A stretch of DNA of 64,000 nt, taken from positions 1-64,000 of the forward strand of contig NZ_VVIW01000004.1 in assembly GCF_011682045.1 (NCBI RefSeq), given 5' to 3'. The notes beneath the pieces were generated by a model. That model was not told where the DNA came from, did no database searches, and saw only the letters and a list, made by a program, of their open reading frames with translations. Below are positions 5,179-15,827 of the stretch, piece by piece. Position 1 is the stretch's first letter. Each line of letters begins with the position of its first letter. The DNA comes from Massilia aquatica. GTDB lineage: Bacteria; Pseudomonadota; Gammaproteobacteria; Burkholderiales; Burkholderiaceae_D. Both the position numbers and the translations under genes were made by a program.

Positions 5179-8004
5179 TCAGGTGGCGGCGGCAGGCGTC
5201 ACGCGCCGCTGCAGCACGAAAATCGGCTGCGCCCACGGCATGTCCTTCTTCTTCTTGCTGGTGATGAGCGTGAGCTCCGACGGGTCGTACACGTCCGTGT
5301 TGTGCGTCAGCGGCGTCGTCATCAGATACTGCGCCTCGGTGTTCTTGAGGAACTCGCCCACCAGCTGGATGTTGCGGATATCCAGGTGGGCAAACGGTTC
5401 GTCGATGAACACAAAGCCACCCGAGCCGTCTTCGGACTTCAACAAACCAATCAGCAGCACCAGCGACTTCATCACCTGCTGCCCGCCCGACGCTTCGCCG
5501 TCGTTCATCCCGATCTGGTCCTTGCCGTCGAACTTGAAGCGCACGTGCAGGCCGGCCTGTGACAACTGCACGTCTTCGTTCTCCAGCTTGACCGGGTCGG
5601 CATGCACTTCGATCCCCGCCAGTTCCCCCAGCTCCTTGATGTTCTTGCTGTAGGTCTTGATGGTATAGCGCAGCCGCTCGATATACGCGCCGCGCGCGTT
5701 GGCGGTCGCTTCGATCGCGCGGTTGTTCTGGTAGCGCCGTTCGTCGGTCTCGGTCTGGCGGCCCTGTAGCTGCTCGTTCAGGCGGTGATGCTGGTCGATG
5801 ACCGTGGCGTCCAGCTCCCAGTCGTCGCGCGCCAGGCTGTGTTCGAGCGAGGACACGCGCAGGTCGACCTGGTGCGCGTTCTGGTGTTCGGCCACCAGCG
5901 CGGCGCGGCGCGCCAATCGGCGCCAACCCTGCGGCAGATGGCGCCAGGCGCGGCGCAGCTCCAGCAACGCGCGCGCATGCTCGGCGCGCTGTTCGATCTG
6001 GCGCTTGTGGCCGAGCCGCAGGCCGGCTTCGGCCTCCGACAGGGTCATGCGCGCGTTCTGCCACACCGTGTCGGCGCGCGTGCGCGTCACAGTGGCCGCT
6101 TTGGTGAGCGCCTGCAGTTCACCCAGGCGTGTGCCCACGTCCATGCGCTCGGCCTTGAGCGGCACGGTGCTGCGCAGGGCTTCGTCGAATTCCGCCTGGC
6201 GCGCGGCCAGTTCCTTGGCCGCGTCCACGCCGGCGATGCGGGCCTTGAGCGCGCCCACTTCCGAGGCGAGTTTACTGATGGTGATGGTGAGCGCGTCTTC
6301 CTGCGCTTCCAGCGCCGGCAGCGACTTTTGCAGCGCTTCCATGCGCTGGCCGCGGCCGGCGCTACCGAAGCGGTAGCGCGATACTTCGACGAACAGCGAA
6401 CGTCCGCCGCGCCGTTCGCGGTGATACGCGTCCGGCGTGATCCACTCGGCGTCGCGGTGCAGCTTGAAGCCCTTCTCGACCGAGTCGACCCGTTCGATAC
6501 GCGCAAGCTGGTCGATCAGCCATGGCGGAGCGGCGGCCGAAAAACGCACCACCGACAACAGGCTGTCATCTTTCGTCACCGGCGCCTTGATGCACTCGGG
6601 GACGATGAAGTGGCGATAGCGTTCTTTTTCGGCCAGGCGATACGCGGCCGCAGCATCCTTGGAGCGTTCGAGCAGCACCACGGAGGCATACCCGCCCAGC
6701 ACACCTTCGACCGCGCCCTGCCATTTGGGGTCGGTCACTTCGACGATATCGGACAGCATCGCGTGCGGGATGCCGTCGTCGCGCAGGGCGCGGCGCATGG
6801 CGCGCACGGCGTCCGGTTCGGGCATCGCGGTCTTGCCCTGCAAGGCCGAGATGGTCGATTTTTCGGTCAGGATACGGCTGGCCAGGGCGTCGCGCGACTG
6901 GCGCTGGCGCGTCAGTTCGGCTTCTTTCTGGTCCAGCTGGGCCGCCACTTCGGCGAGGTCGGCCCCGGAATCGGCGGCCAGCTTTTGCAGGCGCTCCTTC
7001 TGTTCGAGCAGGCTGTCGAGCGGTTTGAGTCTGGCGTTCACTTGCGTGAGGCGGCTGCCCAGCGCCGTCGCTTCCTGCTCCAGCAAGGTCTCCTGCTGCT
7101 GCGCGTCCGCCAGCGCCTTGGCCTGCGCGGCGACCGCGTTGCGCTTTTCGATCAGCTGCGTGTCGGCTTGCGCCATCGGTTTGCGGGCTTCGCGCAGCGC
7201 GCGGCTGGCGTTGCCCGCTTTTTCGCGCGCTTCGTGGTATTCGAGGCTCGGCAACACCTCTTCCAGCAGATTGCGGCGTTCCTTGTGCAGGTCTTCCCAC
7301 TGGTGGTAATTGGCCACGCGCAGGCGCAGGCCTTCCAGGTTGGTACGCGAGGCTTCCAACTCGGTTTCGAAGCGCTTCAGTTCCGTTTCAGTGTCGCGCT
7401 GGTGGCGCTTGGCTTCGTCGTACGCATCCAGCACTTCCTTGTCGCCGAAGACCTGGAACACCAGGTCGAGCAGCTGGCGCGGCGCGTATTCGCACAGCTT
7501 GTCGGTTTCGCCCTGCTCCAGCGCCAGCACCTTGGCCATGGCCGGCGACAGGCCGGCGTTGTGCAGGCGCTTGCGGTAGTTCTCCACGCCCAGCCAGTCG
7601 GTGGCGTCGCTGACTTCCTCGATCTGGATATTCCCCGGACGCATAAGGTACTGGCGTTTCCAGTCGCCGCCGTTCTTTTCGATCTTGCAGAACAGGGTGA
7701 CTTCATCGTCGCTGAAAAAACCGGAGCTGCGGAACGGCCGGTTCGACAACTGGCGCCCCACCGCCTTGTTGTCGACCACGGAGCGGATCCACGCGGTCTG
7801 CTGACCGGAGTGGCGCGCGTAATGCTTGTAAGTGCGGCCCATCGAGCAATCGAGCCCGAACAGGGTGCGCAGCGCGTCGAGCAAGGTGGTCTTGCCGGAG
7901 CCGTTCTGGCCGGCGATGGTGATGATCTTGGCGTCGAGCGGGATGTTCTTGATCCGTTGCCAGTAATCCCAGTGGACCAGTTCGAGCGATTTAATATGGA
8001 ACAT
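5179..8004 (-). CDS. mksB: SMC-type condensin ATPase, MksB/JetC-like
   Basis: This 941-residue SMC ATPase has Walker A GQNGSGKTT (residues 32-40), a long first coiled coil (about 230-400), a hinge-like domain (about 410-560, with WQGAVEGVLGGYASVVLLE and HFIVPE), a second coiled coil and a C-terminal ATPase half. That half carries the signature EASGGQQ, Walker B FVFIDEP and a D-loop AHLD. The protein is much shorter than MukB (about 1,480 aa) and similar to MksB/JetC, whose smaller hinge it also resembles. It would bind ATP and DNA and, with the two upstream products, form a loop-extruding ring. It is last in a tight three-gene operon, 9 nt after the KITE gene, with GAGG ahead of the ATG. No JetD/MksG nuclease gene lies in the window. 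RecF/SbcC-like alternatives are less likely given the kleisin and KITE neighbours. Confidence 0.8.
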   Translation of the reverse strand: MFHIKSLELVHWDYWQRIKNIPLDAKIITIAGQNGSGKTTLLDALRTLFGLDCSMGRTYKHYARHSGQQTAWIRSVVDNKAVGRQLSNRPFRSSGFFSDDEVTLFCKIEKNGGDWKRQYLMRPGNIQIEEVSDATDWLGVENYRKRLHNAGLSPAMAKVLALEQGETDKLCEYAPRQLLDLVFQVFGDKEVLDAYDEAKRHQRDTETELKRFETELEASRTNLEGLRLRVANYHQWEDLHKERRNLLEEVLPSLEYHEAREKAGNASRALREARKPMAQADTQLIEKRNAVAAQAKALADAQQQETLLEQEATALGSRLTQVNARLKPLDSLLEQKERLQKLAADSGADLAEVAAQLDQKEAELTRQRQSRDALASRILTEKSTISALQGKTAMPEPDAVRAMRRALRDDGIPHAMLSDIVEVTDPKWQGAVEGVLGGYASVVLLERSKDAAAAYRLAEKERYRHFIVPECIKAPVTKDDSLLSVVRFSAAAPPWLIDQLARIERVDSVEKGFKLHRDAEWITPDAYHRERRGGRSLFVEVSRYRFGSAGRGQRMEALQKSLPALEAQEDALTITISKLASEVGALKARIAGVDAAKELAARQAEFDEALRSTVPLKAERMDVGTRLGELQALTKAATVTRTRADTVWQNARMTLSEAEAGLRLGHKRQIEQRAEHARALLELRRAWRHLPQGWRRLARRAALVAEHQNAHQVDLRVSSLEHSLARDDWELDATVIDQHHRLNEQLQGRQTETDERRYQNNRAIEATANARGAYIERLRYTIKTYSKNIKELGELAGIEVHADPVKLENEDVQLSQAGLHVRFKFDGKDQIGMNDGEASGGQQVMKSLVLLIGLLKSEDGSGGFVFIDEPFAHLDIRNIQLVGEFLKNTEAQYLMTTPLTHNTDVYDPSELTLITSKKKKDMPWAQPIFVLQRRVTPAAAT

Positions 8005-8013
8005 GGGCTAGCC

Positions 8014-8841
8014 TCAGGTTGGGGTATCGGCGGCCGGATCGGCGGCGGGATCAGGATCGGCCGCGGGCTCGATATGGACCGCCGAGACGGCGTCGGTGAC
8101 CTTGTCGGCGGCCGCGTCGGATGCCGCGTCGGATGCCGCGTCGGATGCGGCGTCGGATCCCGCCGCGTCGGCGTCGCTGGCGGCCTCGCTCACGACCTTC
8201 TTGGGCACGGCCAGCACCGGCGCGCGCTTGAAGACGTCGGCCAGGGCACCGTTGATGATGCGTTCCTTGAGCACGTCGGTATCCATCAGCAGGTCGAGCA
8301 GCGCGCCTTCGAGGATCACGTCGCCGCGCCGTTCGATGAAGCCCATGCGCGAGAGCGCGCCCAGGTTCATGTCCATGCGCGTCTTTTTACCGAGTTTGTC
8401 GCCGAAGTCCGACAGCAGCGCGGTGTACGAAATGCCGATCGAGGTGTCTTCGGCGCGCGGCAGCGGCTTGTCCTTGTCGAACAGGTCGTTCTGGTCGTCG
8501 GCGCTCTGGTGGGTCTCCTGGCGTTCGCGCTTGGGCAGGATGATCTGCGCCCACAGCACCACCAGCAGCGCCACGCCGTCGCGCGTGAGGCCGAAGTTAT
8601 TGTTTTGCCAGATGTCCTTGGCGCCGAAGATCTTCGGCTCCACCGCGCGGTGCAGCGCCAGCGTCACATGGTCGGCATACACGTTGTCCAGCAATTTGAG
8701 GCCCGATTCGAGCAGGCGTTTGTCGACTTCGGCGCGGAACAGTTCGTCCGACAGCACGCGCTTGACCAGGCGGTCGTCGCGGCGCAGGGTCTGATGCGTC
8801 AGCAGGCGCGCAATCAGGATTTGGGAGTCGTCATTTATCAT
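8014..8841 (-). CDS. mksE: KITE subunit of condensin, MksE/JetB-like
   Basis: This 275-residue protein starts MINDDSQILI at an ATG that overlaps the kleisin stop codon by 11 nt; the upstream in-frame ATG at 8865 lies inside the kleisin gene and is not needed. Residues 1-220 look like tandem winged helices, the fold of MksE/JetB KITE proteins that bridge kleisin and SMC heads (ELFRAEVDKRLLESGLKLLD, YTALLSDFGDKLGKKTRMDM, LSRMGFIERRGDVIL, ALLDLLMDTDVLKERI). The last 55 residues are a low-complexity Ala/Ser/Asp then Ala/Asp/Pro tail (AASD repeats, then AADPDPAADPAAD) with no counterpart in the fold. The family call rests on operon position, size and helix pattern rather than a diagnostic motif. 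Confidence 0.7.
   Translation of the reverse strand: MINDDSQILIARLLTHQTLRRDDRLVKRVLSDELFRAEVDKRLLESGLKLLDNVYADHVTLALHRAVEPKIFGAKDIWQNNNFGLTRDGVALLVVLWAQIILPKRERQETHQSADDQNDLFDKDKPLPRAEDTSIGISYTALLSDFGDKLGKKTRMDMNLGALSRMGFIERRGDVILEGALLDLLMDTDVLKERIINGALADVFKRAPVLAVPKKVVSEAASDADAAGSDAASDAASDAASDAAADKVTDAVSAVHIEPAADPDPAADPAADTPT
8111..8158. repeat. Four 12-bp tandem repeats inside mksE
   Basis: The unit GCCGCGTCGGAT occurs three times exactly and once with one change (GCGGCGTCGGAT). It encodes AASD repeats in the C-terminal tail of the KITE subunit. The 12-bp unit preserves frame, so copy number could vary without disrupting the gene. Confidence 0.9.
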
Positions 8842-10198
8842 CGGCCGGGCCGCTTTCCAGATCAAGTGAGAGGGTGGCGATCGACATCGCGAATACGTGC
8901 GGGTCGTTCAGCTGCACCATCTCGTCGGTGGGCGTGAAGGTGATCGGCAGGCGCGCCAGTTGCGCCGTGGCGCCCTGCAGGCTCGCTTCGGCGGCGTCGC
9001 CCAGCAGCGGCAGCATCGAAGCGCGGTACGAGGCCACCGCAAAGCTGGCCGGCAGCAGCGAATCCTGGATCGGCACCGTTTTCGGGCCGTGCTCCGAGAA
9101 GCTGGGGAAGTTACCGAGGTTGGCAAAATCGGCCAGGCGTGCCAGCCAGTCATCGAGTTCGGCCTGGATCGCCGGGCCGTCGTTAATCGTCAGCGGGGCG
9201 TCCTCGCCTTGCGGCAGGCCGGTCGGACCGGTGGTGGCGCCGCGTTCGGCCAGCAGTTCGGTTTCGGCCACGTCGATCATTTCGGCCGGAGTGACGAACA
9301 GCGGCATCACCGGACGGTCGATCGCGCCGTGCGCCAGGCTCGATAAATCTTCGTGCGCCAGCAGCCAGCGCTTGACGTCCGTGGTCGACAGGCCCGACTG
9401 GCCCAGGTGCACGCGCTGGCGCTCGATCTGGTTCAGCGCGCGCGAGAACATGCCCTGCATGTTCAGCAGCGCGCTCTGGGCGCGGCCGATCGCTTGCGCC
9501 GCCTTGTGGGTGGCCGAATCGGCGCGTTCGTCGCTGGTGATCGCGCGCAGGATCTCGGAGCCCTTCTCGACCCAGTCGCAGGCCATGTGCCACTTCGCTT
9601 GCGAGGTACGCAGGCGGAATTCCGAACCGGAGGCGATCGCGTCGCGAAATTCTTCGGTCAGTTCGACCAGGCGCCCCAGCAGGTGCTTGAGCTGTTCCAC
9701 GGTGACGCCGCCCACCGCCTGGGCGCCGGCCACTTGCGAGAGCAAAAAGCCCATGTCGGCGTCGTCGTCGGCCTGGCCCATCGAGAGCAGGGTGTCGAGC
9801 GACGAGAGCACGTTACGCGCCATGGGCGTGACGCGGTACACGGCGGCCTGGGCGTCCCAGGCCAGCAAGCTGTGCGAACGCAGGCGGGTGAGCACCGTTT
9901 CCAGGCTTTCGGGTAGCAGGTAGGCCAGCTTCTGGTTGATGTCGGCCCGCGAAAACGCGGTGGTGCTGGTATCGGCGGCCAGTTCGCGCAGCACCAGCAG
10001 GCGGATCAACACGCCGTCGGCGCCACCGTGGAACAGTGCGGTGAACGCTTGCAAGGTCGGTTGCGCCCGCTTCAAATGAAAGACTTGCTCGATCTCGTCA
10101 GCCGAAATGCCGGCCTGGAAATGCGCCTGCAAAGAATCGTGGTCGTCTTGCCCTAAAGTCAGTGGTTCTGCAGCCACGCCTGCCGTTATTTCCATCAT
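8831..10198 (-). CDS. mksF: Kleisin subunit of condensin, MksF/JetA-like
   Basis: This 455-residue helical protein is first in the operon. The N-terminal 110 residues look like a winged helix (FSRADINQKLAYLLPESLETVLTRLRSHSLLAWD, then the beta-hairpin YRVTPMARNVLSSL). A long helical middle follows (about 150-280, ELTEEFRDAIASGSEFRLRTSQAKW and SALLNMQGMFSRALNQIERQR) and then a mixed C-terminal domain, as in MukF/MksF/JetA kleisins. In such complexes the kleisin links the two SMC heads and recruits KITE dimers. Its stop overlaps the mksE start (GATGATAAATGA), implying translational coupling and stoichiometric synthesis. Two adjacent ATGs at the start are equivalent. The order kleisin-KITE-SMC matches mksFEB and jetABC operons. 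A 174-nt divergent intergenic region with an inverted repeat lies upstream. Confidence 0.7.
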   Translation of the reverse strand: MMEITAGVAAEPLTLGQDDHDSLQAHFQAGISADEIEQVFHLKRAQPTLQAFTALFHGGADGVLIRLLVLRELAADTSTTAFSRADINQKLAYLLPESLETVLTRLRSHSLLAWDAQAAVYRVTPMARNVLSSLDTLLSMGQADDDADMGFLLSQVAGAQAVGGVTVEQLKHLLGRLVELTEEFRDAIASGSEFRLRTSQAKWHMACDWVEKGSEILRAITSDERADSATHKAAQAIGRAQSALLNMQGMFSRALNQIERQRVHLGQSGLSTTDVKRWLLAHEDLSSLAHGAIDRPVMPLFVTPAEMIDVAETELLAERGATTGPTGLPQGEDAPLTINDGPAIQAELDDWLARLADFANLGNFPSFSEHGPKTVPIQDSLLPASFAVASYRASMLPLLGDAAEASLQGATAQLARLPITFTPTDEMVQLNDPHVFAMSIATLSLDLESGPADDK

Positions 10199-10372: not shown

Positions 10373-10804
10373 GTGAATCACGAAGAGTTGCAACGGGTAA
10401 CGGCTTTGCCCGAGTATTTGCCGTCTCCGCAGGTGGAAAAGGAACTCGCTTCCCTGTTGCGCTCGTTCAGGCACGGGATGCCGGATGCGCAGGAAAAGCT
10501 GTTGATGATGGAAGCACTGGCACAACTTGCAGACAGGCAATGGCAAACCTTTGAAACCCTGCCGCATGCGGCCCGCAAGCGCCTCAGTGCGTTTGCGATC
10601 GGGGTATGGGAGCGGCGTTCGCTGGCGTCGACCGCGCTGCTGATCAGCATTATCCGCACCCTGGGGCTGGCGGATGCGCTGGCGTTCGCCACCTCGCTCG
10701 ATCCCCAGACCCTGGAACCGATCATCGCCTCCGAACTGCGCGACGCGCTCGATGAGTTCGGCGCGACCGTCGACAATCCGTATACCCAGATCAAACAACG
10801 CTAA
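10373..10804 (+). CDS. Conserved-looking hypothetical protein, 143 aa
   Basis: The start is a GTG at 10373, chosen because AGAGGAG lies 8 nt upstream; the protein then reads MNHEELQRVTALPEYLPSP. It is helical, with amphipathic segments (VEKELASLLRSFRHGM, EKLLMMEALAQLADRQW, RKRLSAFAIGVWERRS, LASTALLISIIRTLGLADAL) and a polar tail ending NPYTQIKQR. No signal peptide or long membrane helix is evident, although SLASTALLISIIRTLGL is moderately hydrophobic. I recognise no family. It is divergent from the condensin operon and convergent with the MFS gene, with a 30-bp repeat at its 3' side. Confidence 0.7.
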   Translation: MNHEELQRVTALPEYLPSPQVEKELASLLRSFRHGMPDAQEKLLMMEALAQLADRQWQTFETLPHAARKRLSAFAIGVWERRSLASTALLISIIRTLGLADALAFATSLDPQTLEPIIASELRDALDEFGATVDNPYTQIKQR

Positions 10805-15149: not shown

Positions 15150-15827
15150 ATGCTGAAACCACCCATGCCCAACATCCCCGGTGTCGGCGCCGTGACCGAC
15201 ACGCTGGACTTCGTCAAGAATTTGTGGGGAAGCATGTCCGTGCCGGGCATGTCTTTCCCCAACATGGCCATGCCACCCGTCTCGCTCGACGAGCTGGACA
15301 AGAAAATTGCCGACCTGAAAGCCGTTGAGGCCTGGCTCAACATCAACGTGTCGATGCTGCGCGGCACCATCCAAACGATGGAAGTGCAGCGCGGCACGAT
15401 CGCCACCCTGAAATCGATGGGTGCGACCCTGGCGGCGGCCGTCAAGCAGCCGGGTGCGGATGAAAAGTCGGTGCTGGCGGCGGCGCCGTTCGCGTCGGCA
15501 TTTTTCAGCCAGCCGGCCCCTGCCCCTGCCCCTGCCCCTGCCAAGGCGCCTGTGCCCGAGCCTGCCAAGCAAGAGAAGGAAGCAGCGCCGGTCAATGCCA
15601 TGAACAATCCCGTGGCATGGTGGAACATGCTTCAGGAACAGTTCAATCAGGCGGTGACGACGGCGATGACGCCGGAAGCGGGCGCGGACAAAACCGGCCA
15701 GGGTGATGCTGGAGGAAAAGCGGCGACGCAGGTGTCGCCAGCGGGCGGGACCAATGCCAACCCGGCCGAACCGGAAAATGCGGGCAAGATCGCATCGCGC
15801 CGCACCAAGCCGAAAAGCGACGCTTAG
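15150..15827 (+). CDS. phaM: PhaM-type polyhydroxyalkanoate granule protein
   Basis: This 225-residue protein has the N-terminal PhaM signature (residues 1-100): TLDFVKNLWGSMSVPGMS, then LDELDKKIADLKAVEAWLNINVSMLRGTIQTMEVQRGTIATLKSMG. A low-complexity Ala/Pro stretch follows (about 120-150), then MNNPVAWWNMLQEQFNQAV and a basic tail SRRTKPKSDA. In Ralstonia, PhaM activates PHB synthase and tethers granules to the nucleoid through a Lys-rich tail; here that tail is short. It binds PhaC through its helical N terminus. RBS CGGAGAC precedes the ATG. A GATAATTATC palindrome lies at 15105-15114 in the promoter region. The gene is isolated from other pha genes. Confidence 0.85.
   Translation: MLKPPMPNIPGVGAVTDTLDFVKNLWGSMSVPGMSFPNMAMPPVSLDELDKKIADLKAVEAWLNINVSMLRGTIQTMEVQRGTIATLKSMGATLAAAVKQPGADEKSVLAAAPFASAFFSQPAPAPAPAPAKAPVPEPAKQEKEAAPVNAMNNPVAWWNMLQEQFNQAVTTAMTPEAGADKTGQGDAGGKAATQVSPAGGTNANPAEPENAGKIASRRTKPKSDA
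15516..15539. repeat. Four 6-bp tandem repeats (GCCCCT) in phaM
   Basis: The perfect hexamer repeat encodes alternating Ala-Pro. A multiple of three, it could expand or contract in frame. Confidence 0.85.

Follow-up and report, generated by a model that had tools for sequence, protein, structure and literature searches.

A probable nuclease-free MksBEF-type condensin operon in Massilia aquatica and related bacteria

What is the role of an operon that encodes a kleisin, a KITE (kleisin-interacting tandem winged-helix element) protein and an SMC (structural maintenance of chromosomes) ATPase without an adjoining nuclease? The question is raised by a locus of Massilia aquatica that lies in the first 64,000 nucleotides of contig NZ_VVIW01000004.1 (assembly GCF_011682045.1), a stretch that is called the window here. 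An earlier note, made from the sequence alone, had offered three readings of this operon: a chromosome-organising Mks complex, a Wadjet system that lost its nuclease, or a system that uses a divergently transcribed 143-aa protein as a new partner. The first is the best supported of the three, and the operon probably encodes a nuclease-free MksBEF-type condensin that acts on the host chromosome. A pair of SMC proteins would assemble with a MukF-like kleisin and a dimer of KITE into an ATP-driven ring, which most likely extrudes DNA loops on the host chromosome in parallel to Smc-ScpAB and would help to fold and segregate it; ring assembly, loop extrusion and a part in chromosome segregation are inferred from MukBEF and from MksBEF of Pseudomonas aeruginosa. 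Lacking a JetD/MksG subunit, the complex would leave plasmids uncut.

Operon structure and conservation

The three genes form one minus-strand operon (Table 1) at the positions given in the earlier note, and its description of three coupled genes with this order, these sizes and complete ATPase motifs agrees with the open reading frames (ORFs) and with a motif alignment. There is an 11-base overlap between the kleisin and KITE genes, and 9 bases separate the KITE and SMC genes; the length of the KITE protein is counted from its ATG, the mechanically called ORF beginning at a TTG at 8865. These ORFs are taken to be real genes because their order and identity are kept in relatives at 34-99% identity: the kleisin-KITE-SMC order was found in all 25 loci collected from relatives (window included), in two of which the SMC gene is broken, and in all 80 of the loci kept from a scan of named genomes. 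For five pairs of loci, the ratio of nonsynonymous to synonymous substitution rates (dN/dS) was 0.08-0.13 for the SMC gene, 0.05-0.18 for the kleisin gene and 0.18-0.34 for the KITE gene; purifying selection acts on the operon. At its C-terminal end the KITE protein has a low-complexity tail of alanine, serine and aspartate that differs in length and composition among close relatives, and this variable tail may explain the higher dN/dS of the KITE gene.

The set of relatives comprised 60 genomes, from the same genus (17, M. aquatica included), from elsewhere in the same family (19) and from elsewhere in the same order (24). The SMC gene was found in 27 of them: all 17 of the genus (one copy being broken, in a genome whose completeness is rated at 48%), 7 of the 19 and 3 of the 24. 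In a scan of named genomes, the best 80 of 358 stretches encoding an SMC relative were kept; their titles name Massilia, Janthinobacterium, Duganella, Rugamonas and Pseudoduganella, with one Herbaspirillum, two Oxalobacteraceae and one Burkholderiaceae metagenome-assembled genome, and the SMC protein of Massilia rubra is 99% identical to that of the window. A KITE profile, with M. aquatica counted, matched 46 of 300 genomes in the order, 2 of 369 in the class and 6 of 398 in the phylum. A class-wide search with an SMC profile matched one genome of 274, M. aquatica itself; only three candidates per genome were scored, so this search is weak on absence. Among 72,556 plasmid records, two had an SMC relative, and in neither did any single place match 80% of the length of the SMC protein. 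In a set of 81 loci (the named loci and the window, some cut by contig ends), homologues of the DUF3108 genes lie upstream of the operon in 69 loci and those of a PhaM-family regulator in 44, while downstream there are homologues of the window's small 169-aa protein in 69 and of a prolyl-oligopeptidase-like protein in 41, the window being included in each count. The operon is core and positionally stable in the genus.

Classification of the subunits

The SMC protein has complete ATPase motifs, with key residues invariant in an alignment of 11 SMC proteins; besides the motifs in Table 1, AHLD is found at residues 872-875. AAA_21 also exceeded its Pfam cut-off, in addition to the two families given in the table. 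By hhalign, the N-terminal half of the head is nearest JetC (98.1% over 144 columns, compared with 92.0% for MukB and with 96.3% for Smc, the last over 35 P-loop columns only), and the C-terminal half is nearest MukB (89.4%, compared with 85.8% for JetC and 62.6% for canonical Smc). From this comparison we place the protein with the MukB/JetC kind rather than the Smc kind. The earlier note had looked to profile searches to place the protein in or outside the MksB/JetC clade; the matches to library JetC profiles are partial and driven by the coiled coil: PADLOC JetC1 gave an E-value of 5.2e-20, but over residues 184-757, which are mostly coiled coil. Profile-profile comparison with JetC gave 99.5% over 860 columns. 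PF04310, the MukB N-terminal family, scored 15.2 bits against the SMC protein, under its cut-off of 23. A tree of SMC heads in which the family stood beside canonical Smc was set aside, its Smc sequences having been cut at the wrong start.

The kleisin and KITE proteins matched nothing beyond chance in Pfam, PADLOC or NCBIfam, so the JetA- and JetB-type matches that the earlier note had looked to were not found in these libraries; nor did their profiles find anything in the PDB by sequence or match Wadjet-I JetA and JetB in profile-profile comparison. An AlphaFold2 model of the kleisin was built from 30 sequences. When it was compared with the PDB by Foldseek, the top seven of 663 matches were all MukF chains (best E-value 7e-4), and Wadjet JetA ranked 40; the modelled fold is thus predicted to be MukF-like. 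The model of the second subunit has one winged-helix segment, at residues 138-177, where the block confidence (predicted local distance difference test, pLDDT) is 70-81, the remainder being poorer, and it matched only generic winged helices in the PDB, with E-values of 0.34 or more. Its assignment as a KITE protein is made mainly by position and size.

Coexistence with, and apparent replacement of, Smc-ScpAB

The M. aquatica genome also encodes a separate canonical Smc, ScpA and ScpB. ScpA was found in 57 of the 60 relatives and in 49 of the 51 genomes that made up a second set, which overlaps the first, and among the carriers of the operon in the two sets it was found in 70 of 71. The sole exception, G039, is a single contig rated 100% complete. 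It has no ScpB (nine genomes tested) and no canonical Smc (six genomes tested), its only match to SMC_prok_B being MksB itself, and it keeps nuclease-free kleisin, KITE and SMC genes (locus L053). A relative of this genome, G455, has Smc, ScpA and ScpB. At the smc site of G039, 141 bases separate apbC from the next gene, and smc sits between the homologues of these genes in G455; upstream of scpA, the two genomes cease to be homologous close to where the scpA ORF of G455 begins. The stretches compared contain no N. By these sequence comparisons, no condensin other than the MksBEF-type operon was found in G039, which would be a natural replacement of Smc-ScpAB within the window's own order. Loss of Smc-ScpAB throughout family f5 was also considered and proved wrong, the loss being confined to G039. 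As a separate observation, ScpA, ScpB, SMC_prok_B matches and an SMC protein of the window's type were not found in G042, another genome of the order (1.9 Mb, 40 contigs, rated 100% complete), which may have no known condensin.

Family members that carry a nuclease-like gene

The earlier note was right that the nuclease subunit is missing beside the operon, there being no adjoining JetD-like gene in the window or in relatives' loci of its clade. Elsewhere in the operon family such a gene does occur. On a plasmid of Variovorax sp. RA8, a gene for a 393-aa protein follows an SMC gene fragment with a four-base overlap; the protein matches PADLOC JetD1 with an E-value of 3.4e-15, and DUF2399 below cut-off. 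Homologues lie directly 3' of the SMC gene in other carriers, with 30-54% identity between lineages, and in one genus of family f208 the linked protein passes the JetD_C cut-off (26.1 bits, cut-off 22). "JetD-like" is the right strength for these proteins, because Pfam gave no match at an E-value of 0.1 for two members, L155 and L156, the family's own nuclease profile, A4, found no JetD in the PDB, and hhalign of the family nuclease with Wadjet-I JetD gave 1.7%, which is not significant, though the two aligned in register. Invariant in the nuclease-like protein are EN...FE and D..PAG, the latter taking the form DxDPAG in the members inspected, L172 (DPHPAG) excepted; these residues presumably form a Toprim metal site. 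In L172 (3256-4518, minus strand, genome G566), histidine replaces the second aspartate of DxDPAG, and this protein may be altered or inactive.

Because PF09983 (JetD) did not list the divergent JetD-like gene of the family, profile A4 was applied in a separate run. Of 68 carrier genomes, 9 have the gene by this profile and the other 59, M. aquatica included, gave no match; the count leaves out carriers G006, G014 and G016. Within a single genus, a JetD-like gene stands right after the SMC gene in three genomes (L175, L180 and L189), and a fourth (L148) has no profile A4 match anywhere. Nuclease-bearing and nuclease-free forms of one motor thus occur within one genus, and these loci are a natural pair for testing the contribution of the nuclease. 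On plasmids of Variovorax sp. WDL1 (L160) and RA8 (L161), a partial SMC gene lies next to an IS1071 transposase gene; in RA8 the JetD-like gene, xseA and xseB follow the SMC gene, and in WDL1 an identical JetD-like gene is about 27 kb off.

A tree of 66 tips was built from the three concatenated proteins, omitting L054 (the broken copy of G006), L056 (split SMC gene), L160 (partial), and L171 and L176 (no SMC ORF found). Its ten nuclease-bearing tips fall into six separate groups. The nuclease-free clades mostly track host families, with G468 and G575 as exceptions, G575 being the one of 25 same-family tips that lies outside a clade of 24. With midpoint rooting, Fitch parsimony required 5 changes with absence as the root state (mean 9.5 and minimum 6 in 1000 shuffles), and 10 changes if losses alone or 6 if gains alone were allowed. 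Parsimony therefore leans slightly to gain of the nuclease and does not settle between loss and gain. Over 8 loci the divergences of nuclease and SMC proteins are correlated (Mantel r 0.56, p 0.004), with one near-identical pair contributing to the correlation; this fits co-inheritance of the four genes and gives no direction. No IFDR motif was seen by eye at the N-terminus of the KITE protein in the N-termini printed, with or without a linked nuclease; passages of PMC10586767 describe IFDR as a JetD-docking motif of JetB. Descent from a Wadjet that lost its nuclease, one of the readings in the earlier note, may be the history of the operon, as relatives with a linked JetD-like gene exist, but parsimony leaves the direction of change unsettled. 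If the nuclease is ancestral, the operon would be a domesticated defence system. It is a tentative proposal, with somewhat less than an even chance of being correct, that the plasmid-defence motor and the chromosome condensin are two states of one lineage, and that in at least one relative of the same order the nuclease-free form replaced Smc-ScpAB entirely, as MukBEF did in enterobacteria.

Alternative explanations

A function in plasmid defence might be kept with a nuclease encoded elsewhere, such as the JetD of the M. aquatica genome (G000), whose one JetD match is on contig C36. That JetD is present in the genome speaks for this, as does its being commoner in carriers of the operon (12 of 27 by PF09983) than in non-carriers (3 of 33), although shared ancestry within the genus can explain the difference. 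The earlier note would have counted a JetD elsewhere in the genome, and linked in relatives, against its reading; one is indeed there, but it belongs to its own jetABCD operon, and 15 of the 27 carriers have no JetD by PF09983. Among the 15 JetD-positive genomes, jetA, jetB and jetC stand beside jetD in all nine loci examined, with one jetC partial. JetD acting in trans is accordingly judged very unlikely, given its own jetABC partners and its absence by PF09983 from those 15 carriers. The Wadjet-I operon on contig C36 runs jetA, jetB, jetC, jetD (L055 1382-8005), so that this genome has, besides two SMC complexes of the chromosome type, an SMC system of a kind that cuts plasmids. A search (tblastn) of the loci with seven nuclease proteins of the family found no remnant beside the nuclease-free operons.

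Alternatively, the complex could stop plasmids or phages by some means other than cleavage, such as the trapping or compaction of circular DNA from outside. In favour are the recognition of plasmid DNA by related motors in Wadjet, described in passages of PMC10586767, and the presence in the family of members with a linked JetD-like gene, one of them on a plasmid. Against this, the operon is core and position-stable in the genus, it is retained as the only condensin found in G039, and PADLOC, run on the two flanking genes and no other neighbours, names neither as defence; a defence of this kind is improbable. The need for an unrecognised partner encoded beside the operon, such as the 143-aa protein proposed earlier, is hardly credible. 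The gene is divergent, 174 bases upstream of the operon, and has a homologue beside the operon in the six loci closest by SMC identity, but no homologue was found adjoining it in the other 18 of 24 loci, same-genus ones among them, and only 3 of the 81 loci (window included) have one. The 143-aa protein was rejected as a partner on this distribution.

A nuclease-free condensin of the MksBEF type, acting on the chromosome, is preferred to these alternatives, and several observations weigh against it. Its chromosomal role is a prediction, and its closeness to P. aeruginosa MksBEF is putative. Profile-profile similarity of the kleisin and KITE proteins to MukF and MukE is absent; the kleisin model is moderate (mean pLDDT 57.9, with blocks of 52-86 between residues 21 and 260 and low values elsewhere), its TM-scores (template modelling scores) against MukF are only 0.16-0.20, and the KITE model, with a mean pLDDT of 54.4, is poor. 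Above the genus the operon occurs patchily, many lineages managing without it; replacement of Smc-ScpAB was seen in one genome only; and the relatives with a linked nuclease indicate that the same motor can join an apparent defence system.

Comparison with known systems

Nuclease-free MksBEF is already a known kind. According to passages of PMC7485682, the MksBEF complex of P. aeruginosa serves to organise and segregate the chromosome, and it is said in parts of PMC10586767 to be without JetD; as these sources portray it, it resembles the present operon in its kinds of subunit, in its coexistence with Smc and in its lack of JetD. Unlike it, the present family was met mostly within the order of the window, belongs to the core gene set of one genus and includes some members with a nuclease gene alongside. 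Wadjet (JetABCD, MksBEFG), as outlined in parts of PMC10123090 and PMC10586767, shares the kleisin-KITE-SMC order and an SMC head whose profile is near JetC, and some members of the present family have a JetD-like gene next in line; in contrast to Wadjet, the present operon has no JetD/MksG, no JetA or JetB profile match and a core chromosomal distribution. Escherichia coli MukBEF is similar in gene order, in sizes (MukF 440 aa, MukE 234 aa) and in having overlapping genes, and the kleisin model matches MukF; it differs in that MukB has 1486 aa, compared with 941 aa for the present SMC protein, and in that the kleisin and KITE proteins are without profile similarity to MukF and MukE. According to a portion of PMC10586767, MukBEF stands in place of Smc-ScpAB, as the present operon does in one genome. 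Smc-ScpAB is likewise an SMC complex of the KITE type and occurs in the same genomes, but the M. aquatica genome encodes it separately and the SMC protein of the window scores 78.2 bits against SMC_prok_B, far under the cut-off of 567.35. In the portions of the literature covered, to which the founding MksBEF paper did not belong, the occurrence of both nuclease-bearing and nuclease-free forms in the present family is not reported, nor is a Burkholderiales genome that has MksBEF as its sole condensin.

Genomic setting and features of the locus

The flanks of the operon are as described in the earlier note, with a PQQ (pyrroloquinoline quinone)/BamB-like propeller gene on one side and the gene for the 143-aa protein on the other. 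The propeller gene is found in the window only among the 81 loci, and in the window and L034 among the 25. In the window, the 143-aa gene and two more genes, which are MFS (major facilitator superfamily)- and LysR-like by our reading, separate the operon from the DUF3108 genes, which otherwise adjoin it. Near the operon there is also a gene for a PhaM-family polyhydroxyalkanoate granule regulator.

Table 1. Features of the kleisin-KITE-SMC locus in the window
Feature	Position	Strand	Evidence
Kleisin gene (MksF/MukF-like), 455 aa	8831-10198	-	ORF; first gene in 25/25 loci (window included) and 80/80 named loci
KITE gene (MksE/MukE-like), 275 aa, variable low-complexity tail	8014-8841	-	ORF; second gene in relatives
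KITE C-terminal low-complexity tail	8014-8200	-	
SMC-like ATPase gene (MksB-like), 941 aa	5179-8004	-	ORF; Pfam SMC_N and AAA_29 over cut-off; third gene in relatives
Walker A, GQNGSGKTT, SMC residues 32-40	7885-7911	-	Conserved columns
Hinge-like region, SMC residues 415-484	6553-6762	-	Pfam SMC_hinge E-value 0.0016, 19.3 bits, under cut-off of 22.5
ABC (ATP-binding cassette) signature SGGQQ, SMC residues 839-843 (ASGGQQ, 838-843)	5476-5490	-	Invariant columns
Walker B, FVFIDEP, SMC residues 864-870	5395-5415	-	Invariant columns
Gene for 143-aa protein	10373-10804	+	No significant family
PhaM-family regulator gene	15150-15827	+	NF043076 over cut-off

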